NCBI GenBank assembly: GCA_030765065.1
Contig: CM060990.1
Coordinates: 279,709,341-279,773,340, forward strand
DNA length: 64,000 nt
Origin: Deroplatys truncata
Taxonomy: Eukaryota > Arthropoda > Insecta > Mantodea > Mantidae
Reading direction: 5' to 3'
Part shown: positions 31,691 through 62,911 of the stretch, one piece after another
How positions within the stretch are numbered: the first letter of the stretch is position 1
Layout of the letters: each line of letters starts with the position of its first letter
Program-made: the position numbers and the translations under genes
Notes under the pieces: model-generated
The model's database searches: none
What the model was told of the DNA's origin: nothing
The model's input: the letters and a program-made list of their open reading frames with translations, nothing else

Positions 31691-31739
31691 GACTGGACAT
31701 TACACATGCATGAACACTAACCTCCCTAACACCTGTCAT

Positions 31740-40217: not shown

Positions 40218-40284
40218 AGTAGAAAATAAATCAGAGAACGGAGCCTCAAAGGATATGCCGACATCTGATATGCTTCTTTGTTCT

Positions 40285-40700
40285 ATGCCGACAAGCCCCG
40301 CCCCCTCCCTTTGAGGCCTCACATGCCGCCCTGATCGCGTGCCGCTAGCCCCGCCCCCTCCCTTTGGACCTCACCTAAGACCGACTGGTTCTGTGCCGAC
40401 AGGTCCTCCCCCCTCCCCCATGTGGTCTGGTCACGTGCCGGTGGCCCGCCCCCTCCCTCCCCCATACGCTGGGTGCGTACCCTCCCTCCCCTTTGTGTTC
40501 TGGTTGGTTCCCTGTGGATAGGTGGGAGAATGTGTATTGTTCCTATACGGTGACTACATTCCCCCCTTCATTGTGACTTGTCTAAATCTCTGCCGTGTGA
40601 TTGGTTCCCTGCGGATATGTGGGAGAGTGTGTATTGTTAGTATACGCTGGCGTCGTCACCCTGCTCTCATAGCGTCCTGTCTAAATCCCGCCCCTGGTAA
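40285..40700. repeat. GC-rich subterminal repeats of element B, left
   Basis: Diverged ~65-bp units around GCCCCGCCCCCTCCCTTTG occupy ~40300-40505. Two ~105-bp units follow (GGTTCCCTGYGGATA...GTGTATTGTT) at ~40507-40700. The mirror image is at ~62430-62850. They contrast strongly with the AT-rich surroundings and resemble GC-box arrays. Open frames here (Pro-rich) look like by-products of the repeats. Confidence 0.7.
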
Positions 40701-40849
40701 GGTGTGTGGTAGGGAATGTGATTCTCGATGCCTGCCACACATCGGCAAATCGTTTGAGTACATAGTTGTGTCAATCAATTAGATAATGTTCGTCCATGCA
40801 TAAAACATAATTGAAAAAAAAGAATCGCCATCATATTATTACTAATGTC

Positions 40850-41060
40850 CTCACATTGCATATCTAATGAATCGATGCTCCTCGATCGATGAAAACAATT
40901 AAGTATTTTTGATTGATTAATTGTATATGAATTGACTTGCGCACATGTATCTAAACTCCCATTTTTACATCTACTAATGTCCACACTTACACTTCTAATG
41001 AAACGCGGCTAGTCGGTCGATGAAAACAATTAAGTATTTTTTTGATTGATTAATGTAATT
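40850..41060. repeat. Iterons of element B, left
   Basis: Two ~120-bp units share TCGATGAAAACAATTAAGTA followed by a T run and GATTGATTAAT. A third, degenerate version lies near 42165-42212. The right arm has the complement at ~62070-62280 and ~60955-61005. Such spaced repeats may be protein-binding sites. Confidence 0.6.
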
Positions 41061-41291
41061 GACTCGCGCGCCCCTGGTTGTCATCGTATATGTGTGGTAG
41101 CATGTGTATAACTATTACGAGTAATAACATTTGTTTAATTCTACTTTTGAGGGAAAATATATTTTGGATTTATAAGAATATTACAACACTTAGATGAATC
41201 CATAGCTGAAAGGACAGAGTTGTCGTAACACTCGTTATGGCGTGATAATTACGGTGAAAACCCGCGCACAACCCTTCTTCCACGAAGCGTC

Positions 41292-41486
41292 TCACTCGAA
41301 TGAGCGGCTCTCGGTAATTGCAGTGGCAAGTCGACTACGGTACCCCCTCCACTCGCATTTCAGTTTGCGACCTACACCAGCGCGCCCGGTGGTAATATGA
41401 GTGAAACTGGTTTTTTCTCTCTGAACCAGCATGGGTTTCCTCACGGCGCACCTGGCGGTCATATCCGAAAGTTGTGAATTCGCCAT
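41292..41486 (-). CDS. Small basic protein of element B, left-arm copy (64 aa)
   Basis: Start at 41486 (MANSQLSD), reading outward. A TATA-like ATTATATAG lies ~40-50 nt upstream (~41525-41535, minus sense). The protein is rich in Arg/Lys (RCAVRKPMLVQREK, VGRKLKCEWRGYRSR). No domain is recognised. The right-arm copy has the same start and sequence but stops after KLKC, so the C-terminal 20 residues are not conserved. It could be a genuine small DNA-binding peptide, a first exon, or chance. The conserved start context in both arms is only weak support because the arms are young. Confidence 0.35.
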   Translation of the reverse strand: MANSQLSDMTARCAVRKPMLVQREKTSFTHITTGRAGVGRKLKCEWRGYRSRLATAITESRSFE

Positions 41487-41639
41487 ATTGAAGGTCAAGG
41501 TGTGCGCAAGGCGGGCACCTTAACTCTATATAATTCAGCGAAATATGATTCTGGAAAAAACATAAAGGCGAATTAACATTTTAGTTAAATAATGCTCGTT
41601 TAACATGCGAGGTGCGTTCATATTGTCTCATTATAATTC

Positions 41640-42160
41640 CGGAGGAATTGATTATGAAAAAATAAATACGGTTAACATTATAGTCACATATTATAAATGT
41701 TATTAAAAATAAATGATTCGGTTAACATTGTAGGTGAATATTACATGTTATAAAAATAATAAATACAGTTAACATTATAGTTAAATATTATAAATGTTAT
41801 TAAAAATAAAATAAATACGGTTAACATTATAGTTAAATGTTATAAATGTTATTAAAAAAATAAATGATTCGGTTAACATTATAGGTGAATATTACATATG
41901 TTATTAAAAATAAATAAATACGGTTAACATTATAGTTAAATATTATAAATGTTATTAAAAAAATGATTCGGTTAACATTATAGGTGAATATTACATGTTA
42001 TAAAAATAATAAATACGGTTAACATTATAGTTAAATGTTATGAAAAAATAAAATAAATACGGTTAACATTATAGTTAAATATTATAAATGTTATTAAAAA
42101 TAAATGATTCGGTTAACATTATAGTTAAATATTACATACGTTATTAAAAAAATAAATAAG
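41640..42160. repeat. AT-rich minisatellite, left arm of element B
   Basis: About ten ~45-50-bp units alternate two variants: AATACGGTTAACATTATAG then TTAAATATTATAAATG, and ATGATTCGGTTAACATTATA then GGTGAATATTACATATG. The GTTAAC core recurs in almost every unit. Two more units flank 42985-43110. The inverted array is at ~61010-61480. Confidence 0.85.
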
Positions 42161-42289
42161 CGTCCCGCTGATCGATGACTACAATTAATTTTTTTTTTGA
42201 TTTATTAATTGAGAAATGTATATAGGTAGAGACATTCGAGGAAAAATAAAGAGCAGGGAATTTCAAAACCACACTTCGTCTCCAACACG

Positions 42290-42530
42290 CAAACTCTCCC
42301 TCTCTCCTTTCAGAACCTTCACTCTCTCTCTCTCCCTCTCTCTCTGTCTACCTCTCCTTACAAGAAATTCGAAACATGCGCGAAGACCTCAAATATAAAT
42401 TTGATATTCGTTTTTAAATGTTCTCTCTCTCCCTCTCTCTCTCTCTCCTTACAACAAATTTGAAACATGCGCGAAGACTTCAAATATAAATTTGATATTC
42501 GTTTTTAAATGTTCTTTCTAAAGACGTAGC
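42290..42530. repeat. (CT)n tracts with ~85-bp duplication, left arm
   Basis: CTCTCT tracts at ~42297-42350 and ~42420-42450 are each followed by a copy of a block containing GAAACATGCGCGAAGAC and AATTTGATATTCG. The mirror is at 60650-60880. Confidence 0.8.
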
Positions 42531-44450
42531 GAACTTTGAGAAATTCAACGAATTATTCACTTGCGTACCCTGCTTGAAAGAAATATGCTGTACACTCCTG
42601 AAGAACGCATAGGTCTTCTCTCGGAAGAAATGCCCATGGAGACACTCATTAGAGGACAATTTTCCCCGATAATTAATATAAATACTACATGAACATTATT
42701 AATGATTAAGTTTCACAAATCTTATTTCTTTCAATAAAATATTGAATATGACTCAAGCGTTAGGAAAATTAAACGGTGAGAAGCAATTTTATAATTATAA
42801 TTAAACGTATACTGTATAGATTCTGTACTTAAGCATTCGATTGTATCTTTGTTATTATTTAAATACTCACATACAAGAATTGCATGCATGATATCAAAAA
42901 CTAAACTGATTTTTTTTTCGGTATGTTAAACAAAGAAATATGATTTGGCGAGAGTAATATGAAGAATAAAAAGTATTCAGAACGGTGAATATTAGATATG
43001 TTATTAAAAATAAAATAAATACGGATAACATTATAGTTAAATATTATAAATGTGATTAAAAATAAGTGATTCGGATAACATTATAGGTGAATATTACATA
43101 TGTTATTATGAGTTTTACTTTCTCTACTACGTATAGTAAGTAGAGGAAGTGTTCTATTCCACCCAAAGAAATTCGATACCGAGATTTCATCGGAAATACA
43201 TGTTTTTAGACCCTCTGAATCCAAAAAAGCATGGCTGAGTGTGTCTGTGTGCCTGTGAAGCATAACTCAGAAACAAAGAGTCGGATAAACACCAAACTGG
43301 GTATTTAGTTTCAGTATCTTCCAGAGATGCAACACGAAGGTTTTAAAGAAAATGCTCCGCACCAGACTACCCTTTACATGGAACATTTTCGAAAATCTTA
43401 AGTTTCTCAAAAATGACTCTAACGATATTGAATAAAATATTATATGTTTAAGATATTGTAATGAGAAATGAAATGTATATCTCGAATTTTCTGGGAATGT
43501 CTCCAAAAAGTATTCTTCATTCTGAACGACTTTTGCAAAACTGATAAACCATAAGAGATAGACAAAATTTTACTACACAAAAAATGGAGATCGCGTTAAA
43601 ATACATAATTTATATCATATACATTCTTGTTGTTGAGTAAACCGTTTTCGAGATATTGCTTGTTATTCCCTTAAAATTTCCAATACTTATACTTTTTCTC
43701 AAATTCGTTATTCTTGTTTTTATGTCCTGGACATGCAAAGAGAATGGAATGCGTCACATAGCAACCAGCGTTAAAAATATTTGACTATCGCTTAAAACCT
43801 ACCATATTCCCCTTGCATCGACATGAAAATTACCAATAACATTGACATCTCGATATCTCGATTAACATGAAGCATATGGGGAATAAGTGTTTGTAAAAAT
43901 AGTTTGTACAAGAGTAGAGAAAGTCATGTGAGTGTAACACATCAGATTTTTGATATTGGTTTAAATTTTCAAATACTTTTAACTTTTCTCAAGTGGTAAC
44001 TCGCTATTCGTTTTTCCCGTGGTAATGCATAGAGAATAGAATTCTAAAGCCATCACATAGCATCAGGCTTTTTTTAAACATCTGTGACGTGTCTATTCGC
44101 AATCGAGAGGTCGCTGGTTCGAGGAAAATTATATCAACAGAAACAATACATTATTTTCACCCTGTGATTATTTTGGTAATGTAACAATAATTAACAATGA
44201 ATTTTAGCGGTACATGTAAAAAATAAAATATATTTTTTATTTCTAGCGTCATATGCAGAAGCATTCCCCTTAAGGAGCGCTGGCGTGATCGATGGATTTC
44301 CCCATAACAGGTTTAGGCTTGCTTACGAAATGCCCCTGTGCGAGACTAGCATTTTCCCTCTCCTACTCGAATTTTTGGAGTAGCCAATCAAAATCGTTGT
44401 ATTATATACCATCACACCTCTCACCCCTTCAGCTTTTATCGGGGAAATGA

Positions 44451-44458
44451 TATAAAAG
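44451..44458 (+). promoter_or_regulatory. TATA box of left-arm spliced gene
   Basis: TATAAAAG lies ~30 bp upstream of a plausible initiator (TTTTCACTGTATT, ~44478-44490) and ~100 bp upstream of the start codon. The same box is in the right arm at 49008-49015. Confidence 0.6.
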
Positions 44459-44556
44459 CAGTAGCTTCTCCGACGATTTTCACTGTATTGTGACAACACA
44501 GCGAGCTAAGACCTCTGCAAACTTTTCTCATTAAAAGTGAAATTTCAACGAACATC

Positions 44557-45555
44557 ATGTCTGGTAAGTTGTAACAAAACACTTCATTTACTTTAAAAGT
44601 TAAATTATTACTCTGTACATTTAACTTATATTTGCGTTCTTGTTTTTAATGTATGGCATTTATATGCGAATAGCTGAGCATTCTAAAAGTTAATAGCTAG
44701 ACAGGTGAATTTTCTGAAATGTGAACAGTTTAGTTAAGTATTCATTTTAGGCAAGCTTATTCTACATTTAATAGCTAACTGCGCGAATTCTCAAAATGGG
44801 AACAATTTAGTTAAGTATTCACCTTGTTGAGTAATTATTATTACAGATATTTAAATACAGGATTTCACAGAGTGAATTATATTCCTTTTGGAGAAAATAC
44901 AATTATTTGAATACCTTATTAACGTTTTTGCTTTAGAATATTACAAAAAGTCTGTTGCGCGAATCAATCGCTCTAACAAAGTAAATATTTACATTATATT
45001 AAAACATTTAAATCGAAAAATACAGTACTTAATGAACTTCATTAGTGAATCAGAACCTCAATTATATTTACACATATTATCATTTTCAGAAAAAAGTTAA
45101 TAATTTTGTAACTTTCAAATAAATGAAATTTTGTTATGCAACACATTCTCTAATAAAGAATATGTTTTTTTTCTCTTCCTAATGCAGCAAGTTTAACATC
45201 TCAACTTAACACATTGGTTGAGGGTAGCATTTACCCTGCCGTTCAAAGACTACAAGATCTTCAGCCAGAGGAGCCTTATAATATAAAATCCTTAAGAAAA
45301 ATTGATACGCGATACGGTGCTAGAGTGGTTGCGCTTTTAGACGATAAGCAAGTGTTTCTACCGACAAGATATTCAACCCTAACAAGCCAACAGCTGGAGG
45401 AAATGCCCGGGAAGTTTCAAATGGTTTATCATGGAGTAGTACCAGTCGGCAAGTTTAAGACATGTAAATTGTCTTTTCTTCCCGTTAAGGTTTGTAGAAA
45501 TAATTCAGCTATCCTTACAAAGCTTCATTTAGAGTTACATTCGTTGAGTTTATAA
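44557..45555 (+). CDS. Spliced gene of element B, left-arm copy (~124 aa, OB-fold-like?)
   Basis: Exon 1 is 44557-44563 (ATGTCTG) followed by a strong donor GTAAGTT. The intron ends in a pyrimidine tract and TGCAG at 45187. Exon 2 is 45188-45555. Splicing keeps the frame and gives a ~124-residue protein beginning MSASLTSQLN. Features are RKIDTRYGARVVALLDDK, VFLPTRYS and MVYHGVV. This alternating beta pattern (TRYG, VFLP, YxG) reminds me of small insect ORFs linked to mobile or viral DNA and could be an OB-fold single-strand DNA-binding protein. That is inference; no domain is certain. A further exon may lie at 45901-45997. The right arm carries an intact twin. Confidence 0.6.
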
Positions 45556-45559
45556 ATTC

Positions 45560-45880
45560 ACACTTCACTAGGATAACATTTGTCTAAAGTATACATCACT
45601 ATGTAAAAAAATAACGCCTAGGATGTAGTCTGGGCGAGGATCTGCAGAAAGAAGTTTAATAGTCTATTCACTGATTCTTTACCTCAAAGCAGATACCTGC
45701 AGCAAGTTTCAAATAATTTCCAGTAGGATAGCAGTTGTCAAAAGCATGCATTACTGTATTAAAAAAATATGTGTAAATAATGTCTAGATTGTACTCTGAG
45801 TGATTTCGTGCACAAAGAAGTTTAATACCCCTTGCAATGATTCTCCACATCGAAGTATATACCTACAACATGCTGCATAT
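45560..45880. repeat. Two ~160-bp diverged tandem units downstream of the arm gene
   Basis: Units 45560-45715 and 45715-45880 share AGTAGGATA-type starts, AAAGAAGTTTAATA, and GCAGATACCTGCAGCAAG / GTATATACCTACAACATG endings. Mirrored at ~47585-47905. Noncoding as far as I can see; possibly the 3' UTR or second intron of the arm gene. Confidence 0.55.
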
Positions 45881-45900
45881 AATGTGAATGTGTGTTACAG

Positions 45901-45997
45901 GAATGCCCAAATGAATGTAAATGAAGAGGAAGAACGAGATAGCTTAAAACATCATAAACAGAAATGTGCTAGGAACATTCTCAACACCTCCCAGTGA
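45901..45997 (+). CDS. Possible extra exon of the arm gene, left
   Basis: A good acceptor (TGTGTTACAG, ending 45900) precedes an open stretch coding a charged tail (NVNEEEERDSLKHHKQKC...) to a stop at 45995-45997. The right arm keeps the same acceptor and frame at 47563-47467. The matching donor in exon 2 is not evident, so this may be an alternative 3' exon or not an exon at all. Confidence 0.3.
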
Positions 45998-46308
45998 TCT
46001 CAATCAATGAAGAATTGAATGTTTCCAGAGAGCATACTTTTTCCATGCTCGAACTCGCCATGTTCTGTTTACGCGGTGTTGTAATGTAATGTTACGCTGT
46101 TAGGATGGTTTAGGAGACATAGCAGGCAAAAAGGCGGGGCCCGTACCCCTTAAAGATTTGAACCTGAGGTCTGTCCCATTCAACCTGACGTCCACTGGCT
46201 CTGTGAACAATAGTTGTCTAGATGACTAATGTTTCAAGAGAGTATCCTTTCCCGCCGCTATGCATAGATCGCGATTCCCTCCGCCGTCCTCACCCGGGAT
46301 ATATACAT

Positions 46309-46318
46309 AGTTGCGTAT
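46309..46318 (+). promoter_or_regulatory. Candidate TATA box of loop gene
   Basis: GATATATACA lies ~80 bp upstream of the ATG at 46396, on the same strand. No CAAT-type element is evident. Confidence 0.35.
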
Positions 46319-46395
46319 TATGAATTCATTCATTCGCTTTTAATTCCTTCGAGCGTTAGCATTCACGTATTCATTTAATTTCTTTTAGTTTTAGC

Positions 46396-46863
46396 ATGAG
46401 CTACTGCCGGAGAAAACCTGTGCAACTAGCGAATGAGAAACTCAATTTTTCATACATTACACATGGAGGAAAACGCGTTATTAGATGCTGTATATGCGCG
46501 CGGATTTTTAAGAATCGTTCTTTGTCAAGATTTAAGCTTCATAGAGCAACATGTTTTACTGGATCGACTCTCTCTCCTACACTTGAAGATCCGAAGATGT
46601 ATAGAGGGGGATCTTATACCGGATCAAACCTCTGTCCTTCACTGGAGACTACTGTTGGTGAAAAATCTGGATACAGCGGAAGTCGCGAGAATATGAAATC
46701 TTCATATGATGATGATTCAGTGATATCTACGCTTGAAAATCCAAATAGACTAGTAAATATATTGAGGTTACTAATTGCATCGAGGAACGCTGGTAATAAT
46801 AGTCACACACAAGAGATTGAGGAAATTATAAGTAAGCTGAAAGCTTCTAAAGTTATAGCATGA
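46396..46863 (+). CDS. Loop gene of element B: putative zinc-finger protein (155 aa)
   Basis: Starts MSYCRRKPV. Residues ~28-55 form a Cys/His cluster, RCCICARIF then KLHRATC, spaced like a single C2HC or BED-like finger with basic residues between. The middle (residues ~60-95) has two imperfect repeats, FTGSTLSPTLEDP and YTGSNLCPSLETT, and the C-terminus is a helix-forming, Leu/Ile-rich segment ending KLKASKVIA. It may be a DNA-binding regulator of the element. No family recognised. The uninterrupted frame of 155 codons in AT-rich DNA and the AATAAA downstream support a real gene. Confidence 0.55.
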   Translation: MSYCRRKPVQLANEKLNFSYITHGGKRVIRCCICARIFKNRSLSRFKLHRATCFTGSTLSPTLEDPKMYRGGSYTGSNLCPSLETTVGEKSGYSGSRENMKSSYDDDSVISTLENPNRLVNILRLLIASRNAGNNSHTQEIEEIISKLKASKVIA

Positions 46864-47118
46864 CAGGATCGAGAAATTGTGTTAATCAATTACGGTCATG
46901 GTTAACAGGAACTTTGAAATATCAAAAACTTGTACTTATAAAATACATCATCCAGACATTCTTGAGATGTTTAGTTTTCTATGGATAATGCAGGTCTCTT
47001 TCTGTGTGATGTATATGATTATATAACTGAGTGTTTAGAATGTCTAGACTATAACCTTTGTCTTTAGGAAATATGTATGTTTTTTGTATAGGAATGTAAT
47101 AGGATAATGTTTATAAAA

Positions 47119-47124
47119 AATAAA
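47119..47124 (+). terminator. Polyadenylation signal of loop gene
   Basis: AATAAA ~255 bp after the stop codon, followed by a T/G-rich stretch. Confidence 0.5.
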
Positions 47125-47466
47125 TGTTGTTTATGTTACATAGGCCTCATTTTTTATTAATCTTTTTATACACCTCATATCATACAGTCCAATATTAAGA
47201 TGGTTCTGGCTTCTAGATTCCCATTTATTCAAGTTTCTTTCAGTAACAGTTCAATAATTTTTTTTTGTTTATATTTCATGTAGCATCAATGTTTTTTAAG
47301 ATAGGCATTCTCCTTAAACAATTATGAAAGTATTTATGAAATCAATGGTATAGGTGGGTATAGCAGTAATAATGAGTACATAATTTATATATTATTGCTA
47401 TATTCTACACACGCGAATGTTTTTCCTTGCATGTTCCAGGCTGCTGCAATTCTTCATTGATTGAGA

Positions 47467-47563
47467 TCACTGGGAGGTGTTGAGAATGTTCCTAGCACAT
47501 TTCTGTTTATGATGTTTTAAGCTATCTCGTTCTTCCTCTTCATTTACATTCATCTGGGCATTC
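47467..47563 (-). CDS. Possible extra exon of the arm gene, right
   Basis: Mirror of 45901-45997 with the same acceptor and reading frame, coding NVNEEEERDSLKHHKQKC.... Evidence is as weak as for the left copy. Confidence 0.3.
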
Positions 47564-47909
47564 CTGTAACACACATTCACATTATTTGCAGCTTGTTGTA
47601 GGTATATACTTCGATGTGGAGAATCATTGCAAGGGGTATTAAACTTCTTTCTGCACGAAATCACTCAGAGTACAATCTAGACATAATTTACACATATTTT
47701 TTTTAATACAGTAATGCATGCTTTTGACAACTGCTATCCTACTGGAAATTGTTTGAAACTTGCTGTAGGTATCTGCTTTGAGGTAAAGAATCAGTGAATA
47801 GACTATTAAACTTCTTTCTGCAGATCCTCGCCCAGACTACATCCTAGGCGTTATTTTTTTACATAGTGATGTATACTTTAGACAAATGTTATCCTAGTGA
47901 AGTGTGAAT

Positions 47910-48909
47910 TTATAAACTCAACGAATGTAACTCTAAATGAAGCTTTGTAAGGATAGCTGAATTATTTCTACAAACCTTAACGGGAAGAAAAGACAATTTA
48001 CATGTCTTAAACTTGCCGACTGGTACTACTCCATGATATACCATTTGAAACTTCCCTGGCATTTCCTCCAGCTGTTGGCTTGTTAGGGTTGAATATCTTG
48101 TCGGTAGAAACACTTGCTTATCGTCTAAAAGCGCAACCACTCTAGCACCGTATCGCGTATCAATTTTTCTTAAGGATTTTATATTATAAGGCTCCTCTGG
48201 CTGAAGATCTTGTAGTCTTTGAACGGCAGGGTAAATGCTACCCTCAGCCAATGTGTTAAGTTGAGATGTTAAACTTGCTGCATTAGGAAGAGAAAAAAAA
48301 CATATTCTTTATTAGAGAATGTGTTGCATAACAAAATTTCATTTATTTGAAAGTTACAAAATTATTAACTTTTTTTCTGAAAATGATAATATGTGTAAAT
48401 ATAATTGAGGTTCTGATTCACTAATGAAGTTCATTAAGTACTGTATTTTTCGATTTAAATGTTTTAATATAATGTAAATATTTACTTTGTTAGAGCGATT
48501 GATTCGCGCAACAGACTTTTTGTAATATTCTAAAGCAAAAACGTTAATAAGGTATTCAAATAATTGTATTTTCTCCAAAAGGAATATAATTCACTCTGTG
48601 AAATCCTGTATTTAAATATCTGTAATAATAATTACTCAACAAGGTGAATACTTAACTAAATTGTTCCCATTTTGAGAATTCGCGCAGTTAGCTATTAAAT
48701 GTAGAATAAGCTTGCCTAAAATGAATACTTAACTAAACTGTTCACATTTCAGAAAATTCACCTGTCTAGCTATTAACTTTTAGAATGCTCAGCTATTCGC
48801 ATATAAATGCCATACATTAAAAACAAGAACGCAAATATAAGTTAAATGTACAGAGTAATAATTTAACTTTTAAAGTAAATGAAGCGTTTTGTTACAACTT
48901 ACCAGACAT
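47910..48909 (-). CDS. Spliced gene of element B, right-arm copy
   Basis: Exon 1 is 48909-48903, the intron is 48902-48278 (GTAAGTT...CAG) and exon 2 is 48277-47910. The predicted protein matches the left copy except for one residue near position 14 (Val to Ala). The splice sites, the TATA box (49008-49015, minus sense) and the frame are intact. The two copies converge on the loop gene. Either they are under selection, or the palindrome is too young or too homogenised to have decayed. Confidence 0.6.
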
Positions 48910-49007
48910 GATGTTCGTTGAAATTTCACTTTGAATGAGAAAAGTTTGCAGAGGTCTTAGCTCGCTGTGTTGTCACAATACAGTGAAAATCGTCGGAGAA
49001 GCTACTG

Positions 49008-49015
49008 CTTTTATA
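49008..49015 (-). promoter_or_regulatory. TATA box of right-arm spliced gene
   Basis: TATAAAAG in minus sense, ~100 bp upstream of the start codon at 48909, mirroring 44451-44458. Confidence 0.6.
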
Positions 49016-50202
49016 TCATTTCCCCGATAAAAGCTGAAGGGGTGAGAGGTGTGATGGTATATAATACAACGATTTTGATTGGCTACTCCAAAAATTCGAG
49101 TAGGAGAGGGAAAATGCTAGTCTCGCACAGGGGCATTTCGTAAGCAAGCCTAAACCTGTTATGGGGAAATCCATCGATCACGCCAGCGCTCCTTAAGGGG
49201 AATGCTTCTGCATATGACGCTAGAAATAAAAAATATATTTTATTTTTTACATGTACCGCTAAAATTCATTGTTAATTATTGTTACATTACCAAAATAATC
49301 ACAGGGTGAAAATAATGTTTTGTTTCTGTTGATATAATTTTCCTCGAACCAGCGACCTCTCGATTGCGAATAGACACGTCACAGATGTTTACAAAAGCCT
49401 GATGCTATGTGATGGCTTTAGAATTCTATTCTCTATGCATTACCACGGGAAAAACGAATAGCGAGTTACCACTTGAGAAAAGTTAAAAGTATTTGAAAAT
49501 TTAAACCAATATCAAAAATCTGATGTGTTACACTCACATGACTTTCTCTACTCTTGTACAAACTATTTTTACAAACACTTATTCCCCATATGCTTCATGT
49601 TAATCGAGATATCGAGATGTCAATGTTATTGGTAATTTTCATGTCGATGCAAGGGGAATATGGTAGGTTTTAAGCGATTGTCAAATATTTTAACGCTGGT
49701 TGCTATGTGACGCATTCCATTCTCTTTGCATGTCCAGGACATAAAAACAAGAATAACGAATTTGAGAAAAAGTATAAGTATTGGAAATTTTAAGGGAATA
49801 ACAAAAAAATATCTCGAAAACGGTTTAATGAACAACAAGAATGTATATGATATAAATTATGTATTTTTACGCGACCTCCATTTTTTGTGTAGTAAACTTT
49901 TGTCTATCTCTTATGGTTTATCAGTTTTGCAAAAGTCGTTCAGAATGAAGAATACTTTTTGGAGACATTCCCAGAAAATTCGAGATATACATTTCATTTC
50001 TCATTACAATATCTTAAACATATAATATTTTATTCAATATCGTTAGAGTCATTTTTGAGAAACTTAAGATTTTCGAAAATGTTCCATGTAAAGGGTAGTC
50101 TGGTGCGGAGCATTTTCTTTAAAACCTTCGTGTCGCATCTCTGGAAGATATTGAACCTAAATACCCAGTTTGGTGTTTATCCGACTCTTCGTTTTTGAGT
50201 TA

Positions 50203-50760
50203 TGCTTCACAGGCCCACAGACACACTCAGCCATGCTTTTTTGGATTCAGAGGGTCTCAAAACATGTATTCCCGATGAAATCTCGGTATCGAATTTTTTT
50301 GGGTGGAATACAACACTTCCTCTACTTACTATACGTAGTAGAGAAAGTAAAACTCATAATAACATATGTAATATTCACCTATAACGTTAACCGAATCATT
50401 TATTTTTTTAATAACATTTATAATATTTAACTATAATGTTAACCGTATTTATTTTATTTCTTAATAACATATGTAATATTCACCGTTCTGAATACTTTTT
50501 ATTCTTCATATTACTCTCGCCAAATCATATTTCTTTGTTTAACATACCGAAAAAAAATCAGTTTAATTTTTAATATCATGCATGCAATTCTTGTATGTGA
50601 GTATTTAAATAATGACAAAGATACAATCGAATGCTTAAGTACAGAATCTATACAGTATACGTTTAATTATAATTATAATATTGCTTCTCACCGTTTAATT
50701 TTCCTAACGCTTGAGTCATATTCAATATTTTATTGAAAGAAATAAGAGCTATGAAACTTA
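50203..50760 (+). repeat. 0.56-kb tandem duplication in right arm, copy 1
   Basis: This unit recurs as copy 2 from 50761, interrupted by the gypsy element and resuming at 59816 to ~60195. Both start ATGCTTCACAGGC and end GAGCTATGAAA. The left arm has a single copy (~42725-43265), so the duplication happened in the right arm only. Copy 1 keeps the empty target site of the gypsy element. Confidence 0.8.
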
Positions 50761-50929: not shown

Positions 50930-50933
50930 ATAT
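50930..50933. repeat. TSD of gypsy element, left
   Basis: ATAT, repeated at 59812-59815. Confidence 0.7.
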
Positions 50934-52536: not shown

Positions 52537-53592
52537 ATGCCTAAGCGACGTACTGCACAGAAATCTGATATAGCAATTGCTCCAGTTAGCGAGCACAGTG
52601 AAGTAGAATCTATGTCCAGTGTTAGTACGCCTGTTGTTACTCAGTTACTAGCGATGTCTAATCCGCCTGTCGTGGCCCATGCAACGCAGCCAGCTGTCTG
52701 CCGCCCGGTCATTGTTCCCTCTTACTTTGAGAATTCCAGTAGGTTGTCGGCGCATGAATTTCTGCAGAACTTTGAAATGGTCGCTGCTGCTAATGGCTGG
52801 TCAGAAGAAACGAAATTGAAATGCTTTCCATGCTATTTACGAGATACTGCTTCATCATGGTTTCAAACTTTTCGCCATCGGCACCCTCACCGTGATTGGG
52901 TTTTCTTGTCTACACAATTTTTAAATGCATTTCAGATAACAAACCAGAGTGATATTCTGGAAATGAAACTCAGACAGCGGGTACAGTTGGATGATGAACC
53001 TGTTATTAGTTACATCTATGACGTGCTATCTTTATGTGACCAAGTCAACCCTGCTATGTTGCAGTTGGAACAAATTAAACACTTGCTTAAAGGTCTTAGA
53101 CCTCTGTATGTACAATCTTTATTGCCATTAAATCCTCAAACTGTTGATGAGGTAATACAAATCATTCGACGAGTGGACAAAGCACAGTTTTACATGCAGA
53201 ACCGTGAACATCTAGTGTCTGCTCAATCTCGGGCTGCAGTGGTTACGCCACCCTCTGTTCTATTTAATACTGCATCTGTTCCTGCTGTTACTTTACCAGC
53301 TTCTCCTCAGCCTTCTCAGGCTTCTTCTCTTGTGGGCGTACCTATCGATCCTATGCATCAGCTGATTGATCGTGTGGAACAGTTATGTAACAGAGTTAAC
53401 CAGCTTCAGTTACCATCTTCGGAGAGAACTTCCCAGCATTCACAGCTTCCACGGTCATCTGACTTCAGCCGGAGGGATCCACCCGTCACCTGCTATAGAT
53501 GCAACAGGCAGGGCCACCTGGCTCGCTTTTGCCGGAGCCGCCTCCCGCAGTCAAAAAACGACTGGCGCCGAGCCTCGCGCGACGAGACGTAG
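52537..53592 (+). CDS. gag of gypsy element (351 aa)
   Basis: The start at 52537 (MPKRRTAQ) is chosen as the first ATG of a basic N-terminus. A capsid-like region includes HEFLQNFEMVAAANGW and RDTASSWFQTFRH (residues ~75-125). A CCHC knuckle CYRCNRQGHLARFC lies at residues ~319-332. The frame is intact. The protein should package the element RNA into cytoplasmic particles. Its 3' end overlaps pol by ~94 nt. Confidence 0.85.
   Translation: MPKRRTAQKSDIAIAPVSEHSEVESMSSVSTPVVTQLLAMSNPPVVAHATQPAVCRPVIVPSYFENSSRLSAHEFLQNFEMVAAANGWSEETKLKCFPCYLRDTASSWFQTFRHRHPHRDWVFLSTQFLNAFQITNQSDILEMKLRQRVQLDDEPVISYIYDVLSLCDQVNPAMLQLEQIKHLLKGLRPLYVQSLLPLNPQTVDEVIQIIRRVDKAQFYMQNREHLVSAQSRAAVVTPPSVLFNTASVPAVTLPASPQPSQASSLVGVPIDPMHQLIDRVEQLCNRVNQLQLPSSERTSQHSQLPRSSDFSRRDPPVTCYRCNRQGHLARFCRSRLPQSKNDWRRASRDET
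53553..53559 (+). promoter_or_regulatory. Slippery heptamer for -1 frameshift between gag and pol
   Basis: A_AAA_AAC read in the gag frame (codons AAA at 53554, AAC at 53557) inside the 53499-53592 overlap. It leads exactly into the pol frame. This matches the known consensus X_XXY_YYZ. A GC-rich, potentially structured stretch (CTGGCGCCGAGCCTCGCGCG) follows within a few bases. Confidence 0.7.
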
Positions 53593-56500
53593 CAGCACCA
53601 CCACCGCCCACCAGCATGGCTGCACCTCAACGGGACATAGCTACACCTCAACGGGATGTGTCTGCATTATCAGGTCAGATATTGCACGTTCCTGGTCGTA
53701 TTGCCCAGACAGAGCTCTCCATCTTGCTTGATACAGGAAGCGCAGTGAGTATTGTGAATGCTGCACATGTTCTTGATCATTCTACATTAAAACCTATAGA
53801 GATGATGCTCCGCACTGCAGGAAACAAGTTACTTGATGCGCCTTACAACACTGTGTTAGATTTCCATATTAATGATGTTCTTTTTCAGGAGGATGTACTA
53901 GTTGTGAAAGAGTTGTCCCATGATTTGATTTTAGGCAATGACTTTTTGCAGACCCATGATGTTATAATTGACTATGCACATAATCCGATAACCCTGAAAT
54001 CTTCTAAGAATGATGCGTTCAGTATACCAATAACCCTAACACAAGGACCTTTTGTTGATATGGCAGTAAACACTCTCCAAGATGATGATTGTACAGATTC
54101 TGGTGTTAAAATGGCAGTTATGAATGATGTTAAAATTCCACCTCTGTCTACATGCTATATATCAGTTAAGCCTTTGTCAGCCATTAGCAATGAGGTTATG
54201 TTTGAACCTGCTCTTAACATAATGCAAAAGAAGAATCTTTCCATTCCACCGTTAATGTGTCATTCTGCCTCTGAACTTACTATTCCAGTGCATAATAATA
54301 CTTCAGTTCCACAAACATTGTTTGCAAATACAGTCTTAGCTAAAGCTTATGATGTTGCACTCGTTCAGAGTAATTCTGTTTTGTCATCCGATGTTACTCC
54401 TCTGCCAGCTCCAAATTGTAATTTTAATGTTAATGGTAAACTCCTGGAAACCCAAAAGGCTGACTTACATGCTTTATTATTGAAATATAGTGATCTTTTT
54501 GCCACAACATTACAAGAACTTGGTACTACGGAAGTTGCAGAATTTGATATCAAAGTAAATGACCCTAAGCCAATTAAGCAAAGACCATATAGAGTTCCTC
54601 ATAAACAAAAGGAAATTATTGCTGAGCAAGTTAAAGAGATGCAAGATGCTGGCATTATCAAGGAATCACAGTCCTCCTGGGCTTCTCCTGTAGTACTTGT
54701 CAAAAAGAAAGTTGGCTCCATGAGATTTTGTGTCGACTATAGAAAACTGAATGCTGTTACAGAGACCACCTCTTTCCCTTTACCATTGATAGATGATTTG
54801 TTAAGTTATTTGGGGTAGGCTAAATGGTTTGTCTCATTAGATTTACTGTCAGCATACTTTCAGGTACCTATTGCAGAGGATAGCCAGAAGTACACCTCTT
54901 TTGTCACATTTCAGGGTCAATATCAATTTACACGCTTGAGTTTTGGGTTGGCAAATGCCCCTAGGTTTTTCAGTTACATCGCAGACAAGTTGTTAGGCGA
55001 TTTGAATTTTAAAAAGGCTATTGCATATCTATATGACATTGTTGTTTTTGCTAAAACCTTTGAGGAGTTGTTACAAAATCTTGAGGCTGTTTTTCGACGT
55101 TTGGATCACCACAAGTTTAAACTTAAACCAGAAAAATGTTTCTTCGCCATGCAAAAGATCAAACTCTTAGGCTTTGAAGTTTCTAAAGATGGCATTTCAC
55201 CTGATTCTGACAAAGTTGTTTCCATTCAAAATTTTCCTCGTCCTAAAAATGTTCTAGATGTGAGAAAGGTTTTGGGATTGTTTAATTTTTACAGGAAATT
55301 CATCAAGGACTATGCTAATATTGCTCAACCACTAATTCAGTTGATTAGGAAGAATCAAAGTTTTATTTGGGGATCTGATCAGCAAACTGCATTTCAAAAT
55401 TTGAAGGACTTATTAGTTTCGGCCCCTGTCTTAGCTCACTATACTCCTGGTGCTTATACCGAACTACACTCTGATGCCAGTGGATTAGGGGTTGCCTCAG
55501 TGTTGTATCAGAAGATTGATAATGTGTTGAAACCAGTGGGCTATGCTTCAAGGACACTATCTAAGTGTGAACGTAATTACAGTGTTCCTGAGTTGGAATT
55601 GTTGGCCATCCTGTTTGGACTTCCCACTTCCGCAGTTTTGTTTATGGCTACAAGGTTCATATTGTATCTGATCATCACTCCCTTTGTTATTTAAATAATT
55701 TGAAAGATTTGACTGGGCGTTTGGCACGATGGAGTTTGAAATTGCAAGAGTTTGATTATACCATTTCTTATAAATCCGGCAAGAAACATCATGATGCTGA
55801 TACACTATCGAGATTTCCTGTGTTACAACATACAGAAAGTGATCTTGAACAGCTTGATGAACTCCCCACATGTTTGCTGTCATCAGTTGAAGTTGCTGAC
55901 CATCAGAAGAAAGATACTGGGTTACTTGAGCTTATTAATGCTCTCCATGATCCTCCGTCGGCCCCTGCTAAGCTCCAGAGACAAATTTCCAACTACACAC
56001 TCAAATCAGGTGTTCTTTATCGTAAAAATGCTGGCTCTACTGGCCCTCTCCATCTGTTGGTTATTCCAGAAGCTCTAAAACATGAAATTCTTTCTTCATG
56101 TCATGATGATCCTCTTTCAGGCCACTTAGGATTCTCAAAAACATTTGCCAAAATTCACTCCAGGTATTACTGGATTGGTATGAAGAAAGATATTGAACAT
56201 TTTGTCCGAAACTGTCCCAGCTGTCAAACAAGAAAAGGACCGAAGAATCAGAAACCAGCAGGCTTATTACAACCAATTCCGGTTACATCTGTAGGCGAGC
56301 GGTGGGGTATTGATTTGCTTGGGCCTCTCCCACGCTCCAATTCTGGACACAAGTATGTTGTCGTTGCGACCGAGTATGCTTCTCGCTGGGTCGAGTCTGC
56401 GTCGCTTTCTTCAGCAACAATCCCTCAAGTTGCTAAATTTATTTTGCATAACATCATCTGTAAGCATGGAGCCCCTGCTGCCTTGTTATCTGATCGTGGC

Positions 56501-57145
56501 TCAGTTTTCTTAAGTGAGGTGACACAAGAATTGTTGAGATCTTTATCAGTGTCTTCCAATTTCACCAGTGCTTATCATCCAGCTTGCAACGGACTTACTG
56601 AAAGATTTAACCAAACCCTCTTAAATATGCTCAGCCATTTTGTGGACAATAATCAGAAGAATTGGGACTCAATTTTGCCCTATGTCGTCTTTTCATATAA
56701 CTCAAGTGTTCAAGAGTCTACGAAATTTTCACCCTTTTTCTTGATATATGGTCGAGAACCTTCATTACCTAACCAGGTTCAGTTACAAGCTACGTCTAAT
56801 GACCTTTTTGTGAGACAGACATTGCAAGAGATTCAGAAGGCACGGGAGGTTGCTGTTGCTAACATTACAAAGCAGCAGGTGAAGCAAAAAGAAGCATTTG
56901 ATGCTAAACATAGAGATGTGGTTTATAATGTAGGTCAATTAGTTAAAGTTTTCACTCCCATTAGGAAGAAAGGTAAATGTACAAAGTTGCTACATAGATA
57001 TTTTGGCCCTTTTGAAATTATCCGACAGAACACTCCTGTTACCTACCTTGTTGGTCGACCTCATGCTCCCCGTACCAAACATCAGAGTGTTCATGTGTCA
57101 CGCCTTTACCCTTACTATGATCCTGTGGGTCCTTATAGACTGTAA
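53553..57145 (+). pseudogene. pol of gypsy element (PR-RT-RNaseH-INT), disrupted
   Basis: Protease shows LLDTGSAVSIV (~53730). Reverse transcriptase runs from ~54540. It has an in-frame TAG at 54816-54818, and the catalytic YxDD box reads YLYD (~55027-55040), losing one catalytic aspartate. RNase H starts at LHSDASG (~55465) and is followed by a one-base frameshift near 55620. The later frame (to 57145) encodes the end of RNase H, the integrase HHCC zinc region (HLGF to CPSCQ, ~56110-56230), the DDE core (GIDLLGP, LLSDRGS, GLTERFNQ) and a GPF/Y-like C-terminus (RYFGPFEI). Integrase looks intact, whereas reverse transcriptase does not. Confidence 0.85.
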
Positions 57146-59325
57146 AGTCTGAGTTTCTGATGCTTAATTAAGCTTTACTTTTCAGGAATATGTAATATGA
57201 ATGTATCTGCTAAATTACAAGTGTATTATTATTTTGGGTGTAACTTAAATTTTAAATTATGTTTTGGGAACTGCAAATCATTTGTTTTGTTGTATTATGC
57301 TGCATGAATGTGTTTCATGTGTACTATGTGCTTAATTGAGCTTTCATTTTCAGGAATGTTATGTGACAATATTGTTTTGAGTAATGATGTGATGTTGTTT
57401 TGTTGCATTCGATTTGATTTGATATGATTTGATTTGATTTGACTCGATTTGATTTTGGGTTTCATAATGATGCTTTGATTTTTATTTGCAGAAAATTGTT
57501 GCATGAATAGTGTGTGTATGTATGTGTGTCTTTGAGGTTATGTGATATATGTGAGATTTTCCTCGGTGGGTGTGCCAAAGAGTAACCCCGATGGCGTAGT
57601 GTGAGTTTATGTGAGAAATATGAGTTGAGATTTGCCTCGGTGGATGTGCGTAAGAGTAACCCCGACGGTGTTAATGAGATGCGGAGAGATGAGAAGAGAC
57701 GAGATGATGTCAGCTTCGGTGGAAGTGCCACAGTGTAACCCCGACAGTTGTATGATTTCAGAGATTTTGGCTTATTGGTGTTGCTGTAACGTGCCCAGTA
57801 TAGCGTGTGTGATGAATTCACACGAGAGATTAAATGGATGGAAGTGAATGTAATGTGAATAATTTTTTTTCTGTTTATGCAACAAGTTTATTACCATCTT
57901 AGATAGCAAATTTTAATACCACCTGTTTTCCAGCTTAATTTTCATTTGGAGGATGTGGATGCAACAGTATAATGTCATGTTATTTGTGTCATTCCTGAAT
58001 TGTTAATGTGATTTCTTGAAGTTTATGCCTATGTTAGATGTTTTGAATTTGCAGCATGTTAAATGAGACTCGTCAGTGTAGATGTTTTGTTTTGAAGAGA
58101 AAATTGAAAGTTGCGATAAAGATGATGATGATTGAAGTAATGATCGAGATTGCACTATTACTGATGATGATTATGAAAGATGTTGATAATAATGAGATGA
58201 GAAAGATAGTGATGTGGACGAGAAGTTGTATTAGTGACAAGAGTAGGATAATAGTAGTTGAAAGCATGTCACGTGGCGTAGTTTGGAGATGTATTGTGGA
58301 TGTAGTTTGTAGTGATGCATACACTAGTTTGAGTAGATAGTTAAGTGACTGTTGTGTGTAATTTGGGCCATGGTCAGCGTGAATGAGTTCATTTCATTGT
58401 CATGTGTGATTGTCTTGTAAGTGCAGTTACTTTCTTTTGTTAGTGATACCAGCTGGTTATTAAGATTTAATATTGGAATGCCAAAATAAGGTTATGTTTC
58501 ATTTCTGTCATGTTCATGTATTCTGAGTCTGTTTTACTGTTTTATTTGGATTGTGAAGCATTGTAAGTTAAATTTTGGATGGCAACTCTGTAAAATTTCG
58601 TTCTTATGCCAATTTGTACTTATTTTTTTCTCTTTCTTTGCCCATGTCAAAAGAATTTTTAGTGTAAACTTTTCAACCTTTAAAATCTTTAATTGTACAT
58701 GACATACCGTTCTTTTTATGTGTGATTGTTTGTGGGAGCACCTTTTTTTATTGTTTGGTGGTTTTGTTCTAGTCTTTTGCTGTGGCGGAGCTCGAGAACA
58801 TCCAAGAGCATCCCCGGAGCACACCAGAAGTCAAGAAACACCACAGGGAAGCTGTCGGGCAGCCACTACACTGCCGTGGCATAAGGAGCCACTATGTCGG
58901 GGGGCAGTCCAAGCCAGCGACTGCCCACCCTGTTGTCATCACCAGAGATCTGCAGTGATAATTCTACACCAGGACAAATCGTCGTTGTGGGCACTGTATA
59001 AAATCACCCACAAACAGTTACAGCAGACCATCGATATTTTGCGCAGTGTAGTGTGCCTGTGAACTGAGGCAGCGTGGTGTGTGCGTGTGCGGGGTGCTCA
59101 CGTATAAGTGCATTAACAATATTAGTCGACAGCACTTACGTCTCTCGTGTCTCCACATCGCCCAACAATATTGTGTCGTCGTCTGGGTGCTTATCACACA
59201 TGTATATTATTGTTATATTTTGGTTCATCACACATGTGTATGTCATTTTTTGTTATTTTCATGTTTCTTGTTATATTTATTTTCCTCATGTCGACGAGGG
59301 CGTCGACTTCAAGGCCAGGGGGAGA
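57146..59325 (+). other. Long 3' untranslated region of gypsy element and polypurine tract
   Basis: 2.2 kb without a convincing gene and no envelope. It includes a (GATTT)n run (57411-57455) and three ~70-80-bp repeats around CCTCGGTGG...GTAACCCCGA (57560-57750). The purine tract AAGGCCAGGGGGAGA (59311-59325) abuts the 3' LTR. Confidence 0.7.
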
Positions 59326-59811
59326 TGTGGCATGTGCACAGATAGTCTTGTTAAGACGCTCTCTGGATACCGAAGCATGGCAGTTTGTCTGTGAGTAGGG
59401 GCGATTCAGGGGAAACAGTGTCATTGGAAGGGATATGGCGTTACTGACGCTTGGGGTGTTAGCGTGGCTTCTGTGTCATTCAGTGAGTAGGCTTCGGGTC
59501 AGACAGACGGGAAAACTGATAACACACGATGTCCTCGTCGGCAGGCAATGGGCAAAGGTATGTAACTAACTTCATCCAATAAATTGTGTGCCATCCACGC
59601 CTTTTAACTTTTAATTATGGTAGAATAGAATCCTGTCCTCTCCCTTAAGCCAGGCATTGTGTTGGTGTAGTAAATATTTTGTGAGTTAACTTAGCTGCGT
59701 CCTCGTCGTTGCCTCGTAATGTAAAGTGCTTTGTTTGATTTAACGATCCCTCTCGCAATCGAGATGCTACCATCTGCATTTCTAAGTTAATATAAAGTGA
59801 GGCATACGACA
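59326..59811 (+). repeat. 3' LTR of gypsy element
   Basis: 486 bp, ~98.5% identical to the 5' LTR. Confidence 0.85.
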
Positions 59812-60195
59812 ATATTCACCTATAATGTTAACCGAATCATTTATTTTTTTAATAACATTTATAATATTTAACTATAATGTTAACCGTATTTATTTTATTT
59901 TTAATAACATATGTAATATTCACCGTTCTGAATACCTTTTATTCTTCATATTACTCTCGCCAAATCATATTTCTTTGTTTAACATACCGATTAAAACTCA
60001 GTTCAATTTTTGATATCATGCATGCAATTCTTGTATGTGAGTATTTAAATAATGACAAAGATACAATCGAATGCTTAAGTACAGAATCTATACAGTATAC
60101 GTTTAATTATAATTATAATATTGCTTCTCACCGTTTAATTTTCCTAACGCTTGAGTTATATTCAATATTTTATTGAAAGAAATAAGAGCTATGAA
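59812..60195 (+). repeat. 0.56-kb tandem duplication, rest of copy 2
   Basis: Continues the copy begun at 50761-50933 after the gypsy insertion; starts with the right TSD copy (ATAT). Confidence 0.75.
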
Positions 60196-60649
60196 ATTTA
60201 ATCATTAATAATCTTCATGTAGAATTTATATTAATTATCGGGGAAAATTTTTTTTGTGGTAAGCTTAAAACATGACTAGACTTGGTTTTCCACGGTTTGT
60301 GATGGAATTTCTGCACAGAGGAAGCATTAAGAAAATCTATTGTATCGCTAATAGTTATTTACTCAGAGGGTCTGGGGTTTTTCAGAGCACTAAGGATGTT
60401 TAATGAAGGGAAAACGTCTGCCATTGTCCGCTAATGGCTCTATACAGGACCCTGTTTGCATTCTTCAAACCCTCTTAAGCTGTTTAATGACGTGGAAGCG
60501 TCTGCCATTGTCCTCTAATGAGTGTCTACATGGGCATTTCTTCCGAGAGAAGACCGTATGCGTTCTTCAGGAGTGTACAGCATATTTCTTTCAAGCAGGG
60601 TACGCAAGTGAATAATTCGTTGAATTTCTCAAAGTTCGCTACGACTTTA

Positions 60650-60880
60650 GAAAGAACATTTAAAAACGAATATCAAATTTATATTTGAAGTCTTCGCGCA
60701 TGTTTCGAATTTCTTGTAAGGAGAAAGAGAGAGAGGGAGAGAGAGAGAACATTTAAAAACGAATATCAAATTTATATTTGAGGTCTTCGCGCATGTTTCG
60801 AATTTCTTGTAAGGAGGGGTAGAGAGAGAGAGAGGGAGAGAGAGAGTGAAGGTTTTGAAAGGAGAGAGGGAGAGTTTGCG
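60650..60880. repeat. (GA)n tracts with ~85-bp duplication, right arm
   Basis: Inverted counterpart of 42290-42530. Confidence 0.8.
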
Positions 60881-61004
60881 TGTTGGAGACGAAGTCTGTT
60901 TTTGAAATTCCCTGCTCTGTATTTTTCCTCGAATGTCTCTACCTATATACATTTCTCAATTAATCAATCAAAAAAAATTAACTGTATTCATCGATCAGCA
61001 GGAC

Positions 61005-61490
61005 GCTTATTTATTTTTTTAATAACGTATGTAATATTTAACTATAATGTTAAACGAATCATTTATTTTTAATAACATTTATAATATTTAACTATAATGT
61101 TAACCGTATTTATTATTTTTTATAACATATGTAATATTCACATATAATGTTAACCGAATCATTTATTTTTAATACCATTTATAATATTTAACTATAATGT
61201 TAACCGTATTTATTTATTTTTTAATAACATATGTAATATTCACCTATAATGTTAACCGAATGATTTATTTTTTTAATAACATTTATAATATTAACTATAA
61301 TGTTAACCGTATTTATTTTATTTTTAATAACATTTATAATATTTAACTATAATGTTAACTGTATTTATTATTTTTATAACATATGTAATATTCACCTACA
61401 ATGTTAACCGAATCATTTATTTTTAATAACATTTATAATATTTAACTATAATGTTAACGGTATTTATTTTTTTATAATCAATTCCTCCGG
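61005..61490. repeat. AT-rich minisatellite, right arm of element B
   Basis: Inverted counterpart of 41640-42160, about ten units with the GTTAAC core. Unit number and order differ slightly between arms. Confidence 0.85.
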
Positions 61491-61642
61491 AATTATAACG
61501 AGACAATATGAACCACCTTGCATGTTAAACGAGTATTATTTAACTTAAATGTTAATTCGCCTTTATTTTTTTTTCCAGAATCATATTTCGCTGAATTATA
61601 TAGAGTTAAGATTGCCGCTTTGCGCACACCTTGAGCTTCAAT

Positions 61643-61777
61643 ATGGCGAATTCACAACTTTCGGATATGACCGCCAGGCGCGCCGTGAGGAAACCCACGC
61701 TGGTTCAGAGAGAAAAAACCAGTTTCACTCAGATTACCACCGGGCGCGCTGGTGTAGGTCGCAAACTGAAATGCTAG
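61643..61777 (+). CDS. Small basic protein of element B, right-arm copy (44 aa)
   Basis: Same start (MANSQLSDMTARRAVRKP) as the left copy at 41486, reading outward, but ends at TAG after GVGRKLKC. In the left arm this codon is GAG. Either copy could be the original length. Function unknown. Confidence 0.35.
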   Translation: MANSQLSDMTARRAVRKPTLVQREKTSFTQITTGRAGVGRKLKC

Positions 61778-62069
61778 TGGAGGGGGTACCGTAGTCGACT
61801 TGCCACTGCAATTACCGAGAGCCGCTCATTCGAGTGAGACGCTTCGTGGAAGAAGGGTTGTGCGCGGGTTTTCACCGAAATTATCACGCGATAACGAGTG
61901 TTACGACAACTCTGTCCTTTCAGCTATGGATTCATCTAAGTGTTGTAATATTCTTATAAATCCAAAATATATTTTCCCTCAAAAGTAGAATTAAACAAAT
62001 GTTATTACTCGTAATAGTTATACACATGCTACCACACATATACGATGACAACCAGGGGCGCGCGAGTCA

Positions 62070-62850
62070 ATTACATTAATCAATCAAAAAAATACTTAAT
62101 TGTTTTCATCGACCGACTAGCCGCGTTTCATTAGAAGTGTAAGTGTGGACATTAGTAGATGTAAAATGGGAGTTTAGATACATGTGCGCAAGTCAATTCA
62201 TATACAATTAATCAATCAAAAATACTTAATTGTTTTCATCGATCGAGGAGCATCGATTCATTAGATATGCAATGTGAGGACATTAGTAATAATATGATGG
62301 CGATTCTTTTTTTATCAATTATGTTTTATGCATGGACGAACATTATCTAATTGATTGACACAATTATGTACTCAAACGATTTGCCGATGTGTGGCAGGCA
62401 TCGAGAATCACATTCCCTACCACACACCTTACCAGGGGCGGGATTTAGACAGGACGCTATGAGAGCAGGGTGACGACGCCAGCGTATACTAACAATACAC
62501 ACTCTCCCACATATCCGCAGGGAACCAATCACACGGCAGAGATTTAGACAAGTCACAATGAGGGGGGGAATGTAGTCACCGTATAGGAACAATACACACT
62601 CTCCCACCTATCCACAGGGAACCAACCAGAACACAAAGGGGAGGGAGGGTACGCACCCAGCGTATGGGGGAGGGAGGGGGCGGGCCACCGGCACGTGACC
62701 AGACCACATGGGGGAGGGGGGAGGACCTGTCGGCACAGAACCAGTCGGTCTTAGGTGAGGTCCAAAGGGAGGGGGCGGGGCTAGCGGAACGCGACCAGGG
62801 CGGCATGTGAGGCCTCAAAGGGAGGGCGCGGGGCTTATCGGCATAGAACA
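62070..62850. repeat. Iterons and GC-rich subterminal repeats, right arm of element B
   Basis: Inverted counterpart of 40285-41060, in the same order. Confidence 0.7.
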
Positions 62851-62911
62851 AAGAAGCTTATCAGATGTCGGCATATCCTTTGAGGCTCCGTTCTCTCATT
62901 TATTTCCTACT

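Follow-up and report, generated by a model that had tools for sequence, protein, structure and literature searches.

Organisation and termini of the palindrome

The 64,000-nucleotide stretch of Deroplatys truncata contig CM060990.1 analysed here, termed the window, contains two giant palindromes. The second, at positions 40218-62911, belongs to a mobile, multi-copy, Polinton-related family whose elements are palindromic and, by gene content, non-autonomous. Comparison of the window with itself placed inverted arms at 40218-46017 (forward strand) and 47447-62911 (reverse strand) on either side of a loop of 1,429 bp (46018-47446), which is single-copy in this element and agrees with the 1.43-kb loop described in an initial sequence-only reading. 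The element ends are AGTAGAAAATAAAT and AGTAGGAAATAAAT; AGTAG is present at both, as that reading had claimed, and the flanking 6-mers GAACGT (40212-40217) and GATCGT (62912-62917), the left and right copies of the target site, are the same at five of six positions.

The arms are 98-99% identical. Fifty of 2,395 aligned bases differ in the outer part (40218-42660 against 62911-60507) and 45 of 3,308 in the inner part (42707-46017 against 50760-47447), yielding 95 substitutions and 23 gap events in total and an overall divergence of 1.7%, by which the palindrome, previously called young, is moderately so. The differences are unevenly spread, with 10 in 1,998 positions of block 43750-45749, which holds the arm gene described below, against 85 in 3,705 elsewhere (Fisher p = 5e-8). 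This unevenness may reflect selection, gene conversion or a combination of the two. Each arm contains an AT-rich array of tandem units of approximately 50 bp, located at 41660-42159 (forward strand) and, as a mirror copy, at 61007-61478 (reverse strand). The arm stretch 43261-43582 has approximately 68% similarity, along 0.3 kb, to a repeat at window positions 3712-4014.

The description of two nearly identical 5.8-kb arms was correct as to inversion and identity but not as to size: the whole span is 22.7 kb and not twice 5.8 kb plus 1.4 kb, since the right arm contains additional sequence. An 8.9-kb Ty3/gypsy long terminal repeat (LTR) retrotransposon, overlooked in the earlier reading and separate from the genes of the palindrome itself, occupies 50934-59811 on the forward strand. 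It has gag, protease, reverse transcriptase, RNase H and integrase domains, its two LTRs show 7 mismatches in 480 bases and three gaps, and it is flanked by the 4-bp duplication ATAT (junctions judged by eye). The retrotransposon sits in the second copy of a tandem duplication of approximately 560 bp, the first copy of which lies at 50200-50760 on the forward strand and the second at 50758-50933 plus 59812-60200. After removal of the retrotransposon insertion and its duplication the element measures 13.8 kb by coordinate arithmetic. A further stretch of approximately 258 bp (60250-60506) has no counterpart in the left arm, representing either an insertion here or a deletion there.

Copies across the genome

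The 4.29-Gb genome was searched with the first 301 bp of the arm, and 40 of 2,841 first-look candidates were scored. All 40 were 92-100% identical to the query; two fall in the window itself, 30 make up 15 inverted pairs whose members lie 15-26 kb apart, and eight have no listed partner. The copy sample comprised all 15 other end-pairs among these scored matches, ten as 10-kb pieces per end and five as 2-kb ends. Target duplications of 6 bp are perfect in 14 of the 15 pairs and match at five of six positions in the remaining one (L034/35), while control pairings of mismatched left and right ends gave no identical 6-mers in 210 and only two in 210 that reached five or more. Other insertions and recurrent 6-bp duplications had been predicted from the window, and both were found; all copies examined share the same ends. 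Mobility by Polinton-like integration is thus strongly supported by the recurrent duplications, by ends that resemble the (AGT)2 type and by a same-ended relative, described below, that carries a retroviral-type integrase and PolB.

Long inverted arms are present in ten of the 15 pairs, the other five having repeats of only about 0.7 kb. Among the pairs sampled as 10-kb pieces, eight of ten are long-armed, with first collinear blocks of 2.3-8.0 kb, some continued by more blocks, and arm identities of 97-99% in the main blocks; two (L032/33 and L034/35) are inverted over only about 0.7 kb. The 2-kb ends gave two pairs whose inversion extends approximately to the limit of the fragment (L058/59 and L062/63) and three inverted over roughly 0.7 kb only (L054/55, L056/57 and the shifted L060/61).

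Large palindromes can also arise by segmental inverted duplication of host sequence or as artefacts of assembly. Inverted arms at ten of 15 other sites, bounded by recurrent target duplications, exclude a unique host inversion, and an assembly or missed-adapter artefact would hardly recur at these sites or leave arms separated by the substitutions and gap events counted above, with a retrotransposon in only one of them. Both explanations were rejected and retain practically no probability.

Genes of the palindrome

Pfam scans of the six frames of 40218-47447, covering the left arm and loop, gave no match with an E value of 0.1 or below, and hence none to a PolB, integrase, ATPase or capsid domain, nor to a superfamily 3 helicase or parvovirus capsid. 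The earlier statement that no recognisable transposase or polymerase is present therefore holds for the arm and loop, but not for the span as a whole, where the nested Ty3/gypsy element has a reverse transcriptase and an integrase.

The arm gene has a predicted exon 1 at 44557-44563 (ATGTCTG, followed by GTAAGT) with a TATA-like box upstream by eye, an exon 2 at 45188-45489 (arm 4971-5272) and a possible exon 3 at 45901-45924, predicted by eye from the splice acceptor TTACAG, all on the forward strand. The right arm repeats exon 1 at 48903-48909 and exon 2 at 47976-48277 on the reverse strand, and exon 2 is open in both arms. Eleven full-length copies of exon 2, one with a stop, gave a ratio of non-synonymous to synonymous variation (pN/pS) of 0.31. 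Distinct variants among 13 aligned copies, relative to that of the window, comprised 15 synonymous, 21 non-synonymous and one stop (p = 0.009, omega 0.41), so that in its sequence the gene shows signs of purifying selection. A second gene of the arms, a basic open reading frame (ORF) proposed in the sequence-only reading, was not upheld: the longest candidate (49711-50025, 104 amino acids) has no open left-arm counterpart of at least 60 amino acids.

The arm protein is plausibly a candidate oligonucleotide/oligosaccharide-binding (OB) fold protein of the single-stranded DNA-binding type. In a single-sequence model (predicted local distance difference test score, pLDDT, 49) the strands follow the order b-b-b-a-b-b, which fits an OB fold. 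The best fold matches of this model in the PDB included a RecG structure, Sulfolobus SSB, PrgE, LEF-3 and PRD1 P12 together with unrelated proteins, all at E 0.25 or worse. Neither the arm protein nor a PolB piece had a significant match in protein database searches, PDB sequence searches gave chance-level matches only, viral-contig scans and a PHROGs comparison of two proteins produced no match, and a hand-made arm-protein pattern found 19 loci in viral contigs, none of them related. A relative was detected in the flank of L042 (259-498), 30% identical at E 3e-10 (36% in the alignment) and with KYGAR and LP.R in common, which suggests that the arm protein is part of a wider family in the D. 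truncata genome.

The loop contains a zinc-finger-like gene of 155 amino acids at 46396-46863 (forward strand), with a C-x2-C ... H-x3-C arrangement identified by eye. Its frame is notable by length, which was reached in only two of 500 Markov simulations.

Relationship to Polintons

Inner gene content was read for two of the five short-repeat pairs. L032/L048/L033 spans 20.6 kb between duplications of TACGTA and encodes, in separate frames, a DNA_pol_B_2 protein (E 6e-21, in L032), an rve integrase (5.5e-10), a double-jelly-roll capsid protein (7e-111) and an ATPase of Pox_A32 type (8e-7), these three in L033, and a phospholipase A2/adenovirus PX-type protein (1e-12/2e-7). Frames of 273, 369, 283, 132 and 161 amino acids had no family match above the cut-off; the motifs of the 132-amino-acid frame suggest a cysteine protease and those of the 283-amino-acid frame suggest a penton-type protein. 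Judged by its genes, this is a complete-looking Polinton/adintovirus. L034/L049/L035 carries the same gene set at 81-98% identity in the main pieces, with some frames fragmented. Even at a relaxed threshold, exon 2 of the arm gene had no convincing homologue in either element (best E 2.4).

Bases 1-4698 of the window arm (40218-44915, forward strand) align in order, with gaps, to the left ends of L032 and L034, at 89-94% across the main blocks, falling to 84-86% in the final one. Within this region bases 1-724 (40218-40941, forward strand) match both ends of L032/L033 and of L034/L035 at 86-92% and are the equivalent of the short terminal repeat of these relatives. Arm base 4340 corresponds to the predicted exon 1 of the arm gene; the promoter region of the arm gene is therefore the region upstream of PolB in the relative. 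The last part of the zinc-finger gene (46737-46863, forward strand) is 86% identical to the final 127 bp of the 273-amino-acid frame beside the integrase (L033 843-969), giving the two proteins a common C-terminal tail of 41 amino acids. On sequence grounds this tail could be an interaction or packaging tag. The motif of the 50-bp array occurs nowhere in L032 and twice in L034, which makes it less likely that the array is a packaging signal acquired from the relative; in adenoviruses the packaging domain is described as AT-rich repeats near the left end (PMC5033970).

The palindrome has the 6-bp duplication (five of six positions in the window), inverted repeats and AGT-type terminal motif of Polintons, or Mavericks, and shares termini and subterminal sequence with enzyme-bearing copies in the same genome, as expected of a non-autonomous derivative. 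Its AGTAG ends are near the published (AGT)2//(ACT)2 motif, given as AGTAGT in PMC8097293 compared with AGTAGA/AGTAGG in the window. It differs from Polintons in possessing an arm gene of its own in place of the domains absent from the Pfam scan, and in inverted repeats that span nearly the whole element, whereas those of intact vertebrate Mavericks are reported as 46-1,447 bp (PMC8097293).

Very long, internally repetitive inverted repeats, with some copies consisting of almost nothing else, are also a feature of Foldback and Galileo (PMC3573991), and an element of that or another transposase-bearing kind that had lost its transposase might resemble a Polinton in its ends only. Galileo, as described there, has a P-superfamily transposase and 7-bp, not 6-bp, duplications; these elements have no kinship with Polintons. 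The presence of PolB and integrase in same-ended relatives, with 4.7 kb in common, largely refutes such an origin, which we regard as very improbable. The palindrome is far better explained as a member of a family of palindromic, non-autonomous elements that are satellites of a Polinton/adintovirus, an identification that we consider probable. The "undescribed type" of element proposed earlier is thus retained only in part, as a non-autonomous derivative of a Polinton lineage in the same genome and not as an unrelated kind of element.

Descent of the arms and structure of the centre

A tree was built from a 1.6-kb arm stretch with 18 rows, 17 of them different since the left arm of the window was entered twice. 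Of the seven elements represented by both arms, five (the window copy, L028/29, L040/41, L042/43 and L046/47) have arms that group as sisters. In these five the arms differ less within than between elements, which indicates that the first arm usually serves as template for the second, as a fold-back stage in every cycle would predict.

Loop-segment and arm-gene counts cover the eight palindromes sampled as 10-kb pieces. The arm gene is present in both arms of five. The loop segment, with its zinc-finger gene, occurs twice and inverted on either side of the centre in four (L028/29, L040/41, L042/43 and L044/45), has a partial second copy in one (L046/47) and is single, as in the window, in three (L030/31, L036/37 and L038/39). 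The centres of L028, L042 and L044 (about 2.0, 2.8 and 2.0 kb) are mostly minisatellite with a translation period of seven residues, equal to 21 bp, by eye. Since half of the palindromes have this segment to either side of the centre, the loop of the window is best read as what probably remains after an off-centre deletion, of which L046/47 looks like an intermediate.

Several observations weigh against the satellite interpretation. The PolB-bearing relatives nest inside the palindromes, with L042/43 (support 100/99), so palindromes have probably either formed more than once or exchanged ends with the other kind, and descent may have run in either direction. L038/39 has its arms in separate supported clades, and those of L030/31 are not resolved in the tree (one element in seven each); these are also the two of eight palindromes with a one-sided arm gene, a coincidence that suggests recombination between kinds. 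The arm gene is absent from one further palindrome, L044/45, the arms of which encode in its place an N-terminal piece of PolB (72% over 321 amino acids), possibly a stand-alone terminal-protein-like part. ORF length is weak evidence for the arm gene when taken alone, being reached in 48, 44 and 14 of 500 Markov simulations for three stretches, and the OB-fold assignment derives from a low-confidence model whose best structural match (E 0.25) is not significant. Selection on the zinc-finger gene was likewise not significant (omega 0.66, p = 0.1) in an alignment of 15 rows, two of which are one locus covered by overlapping pieces, and four copies (L031, the single copy of L036/L037, L041 and L045) have a disrupted frame.

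Broken genes, capsid-bearing relatives nested within the palindromes and the mixed appearance of L030/31 and L038/39 would suit palindromes that are simply decayed Polintons, dead by-products of faulty replication or repair, each inserted a single time and without a satellite life; palindromic defective genomes are known from adenoviruses. The palindromes nevertheless share a conserved loop (94-97%), and seven of eight share a small gene that was not found in the two capsid-bearing relatives and that bears signs of purifying selection. A new gene common to the palindromes and conserved among them is not expected of independent dead products, and we consider decay alone unlikely.

Comparison with known satellite and multipartite systems

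In palindromic defective adenovirus genomes, such as adenovirus type 12 (Ad12) SYREC, both ends derive from the left end, so that every cis element is kept, and propagation depends on a protein-primed helper. Palindromes of the window type resemble them in being large and in having two ends from the left end, and by analogy fit the same logic; they differ in being genomic, multi-copy, inserted with target duplications and equipped with conserved genes. To our knowledge the palindromic form is otherwise known only as a defective by-product of adenoviruses. A literature search of open-licence papers found no palindromic Polintons, by which absence from print is not proven.

Virophage- and transpoviron-type satellites are dependent elements mobilised by a larger DNA virus. 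The presumed helper here differs in being a transposon of the same lineage.

The absence of a convincing arm-gene homologue from the two capsid-bearing relatives raises a further alternative, a multipartite virus-like system in which the palindromes would supply a single-stranded DNA-binding replication protein without counterpart in the polymerase-bearing element, each part depending on the other. Bidnaviruses offer a partial parallel, their linear genomes being described as Polinton-derived and in some cases multi-segmented (PMC4061559, PMC11071296); they have a parvovirus-type helicase and capsid, neither of which was matched in the palindrome arm and loop. Polintons, however, are described as self-synthesizing (PMC4046053), and mutual dependence is given little credence.

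The first palindrome of the window

The first palindrome, at 14901-32593, is flanked by a perfect 6-bp duplication, CCTAAT, and ends in AGTRGAATAT. Decayed PolB pieces are present in both arms, 30-37% identical to the PolB of L032, together with a capsid-protein fragment at 15568-15705 (49% over 55 amino acids). The arm blocks are roughly 69-90% identical and contain mariner and Tc1 insertions. We take it to represent another palindromic Polinton lineage, older than that of the second palindrome. As a sequence match, the ends of the two palindromes resemble each other weakly, 21 of 127,936 positions scoring as high with self-overlaps included. The loop of the first palindrome starts (window 23109) near the 10-mer AGTAGAAAAT, the terminal sequence of the second, which may be chance. 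Among the relatives of the first palindrome, L064/L065 (C16:442673162-442694592) is 21 kb long and inverted over at least 1.7 kb (88%), and L068 (C6) is a 4.75-kb miniature with short repeats; the flanks of each match at five of six positions by eye. No clear ends were found for L066/L067.

Proposed cycle and significance

Polintons are reported to insert by a retroviral-like integrase (PMC6431247), and a published model cited in a paper on casposons (PMC4046053) has them replicated by a self-encoded polymerase via a single-stranded intermediate. It is likely that a Polinton mobilises the palindrome in trans and that replication proceeds by fold-back copying. The integrase of the relative would insert the palindrome and its PolB would replicate it. 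With each end copied from the left end of the relative, the molecule would contain all cis sequences, including the origin and possibly a packaging signal, in duplicate. One strand would fold back and the second arm would be copied from the first, regenerating near-identical arms, while the small arm protein, possibly a single-stranded DNA-binding OB-fold protein expressed from the region that lies upstream of PolB in the relative, may aid the single-stranded stage. The full unit would probably read end, arm gene, zinc-finger gene and central minisatellite, followed by the mirror image; in the window copy an off-centre deletion would have removed the centre and one zinc-finger copy, leaving the 1.43-kb loop. 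Packaging of the palindromes in Polinton capsids is possible.

Taken to its full extent, this would describe a self-complementary linear satellite virus-transposon of animals that uses the polymerase, integrase and capsid of a co-resident Polinton, makes its own single-stranded DNA-binding-type protein from both arms, has a C-terminal tail in common with one of the helper's proteins and in every cycle restores the mirror arms through fold-back copying. We advance this complete scheme tentatively, as a possibility that may well fail in one or more of its parts.

If the interpretation is true, animal Polintons have satellites, and a palindromic form that is elsewhere a defective by-product of adenoviruses would here have become a gene-bearing mobile family. 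The family would also provide a natural test of single-stranded, protein-primed Polinton replication, since fold-back predicts arms that are near-identical at birth, a prediction largely borne out in five of seven elements. The finding would also caution that giant palindromes in genome assemblies can be mobile elements and not host inversions.

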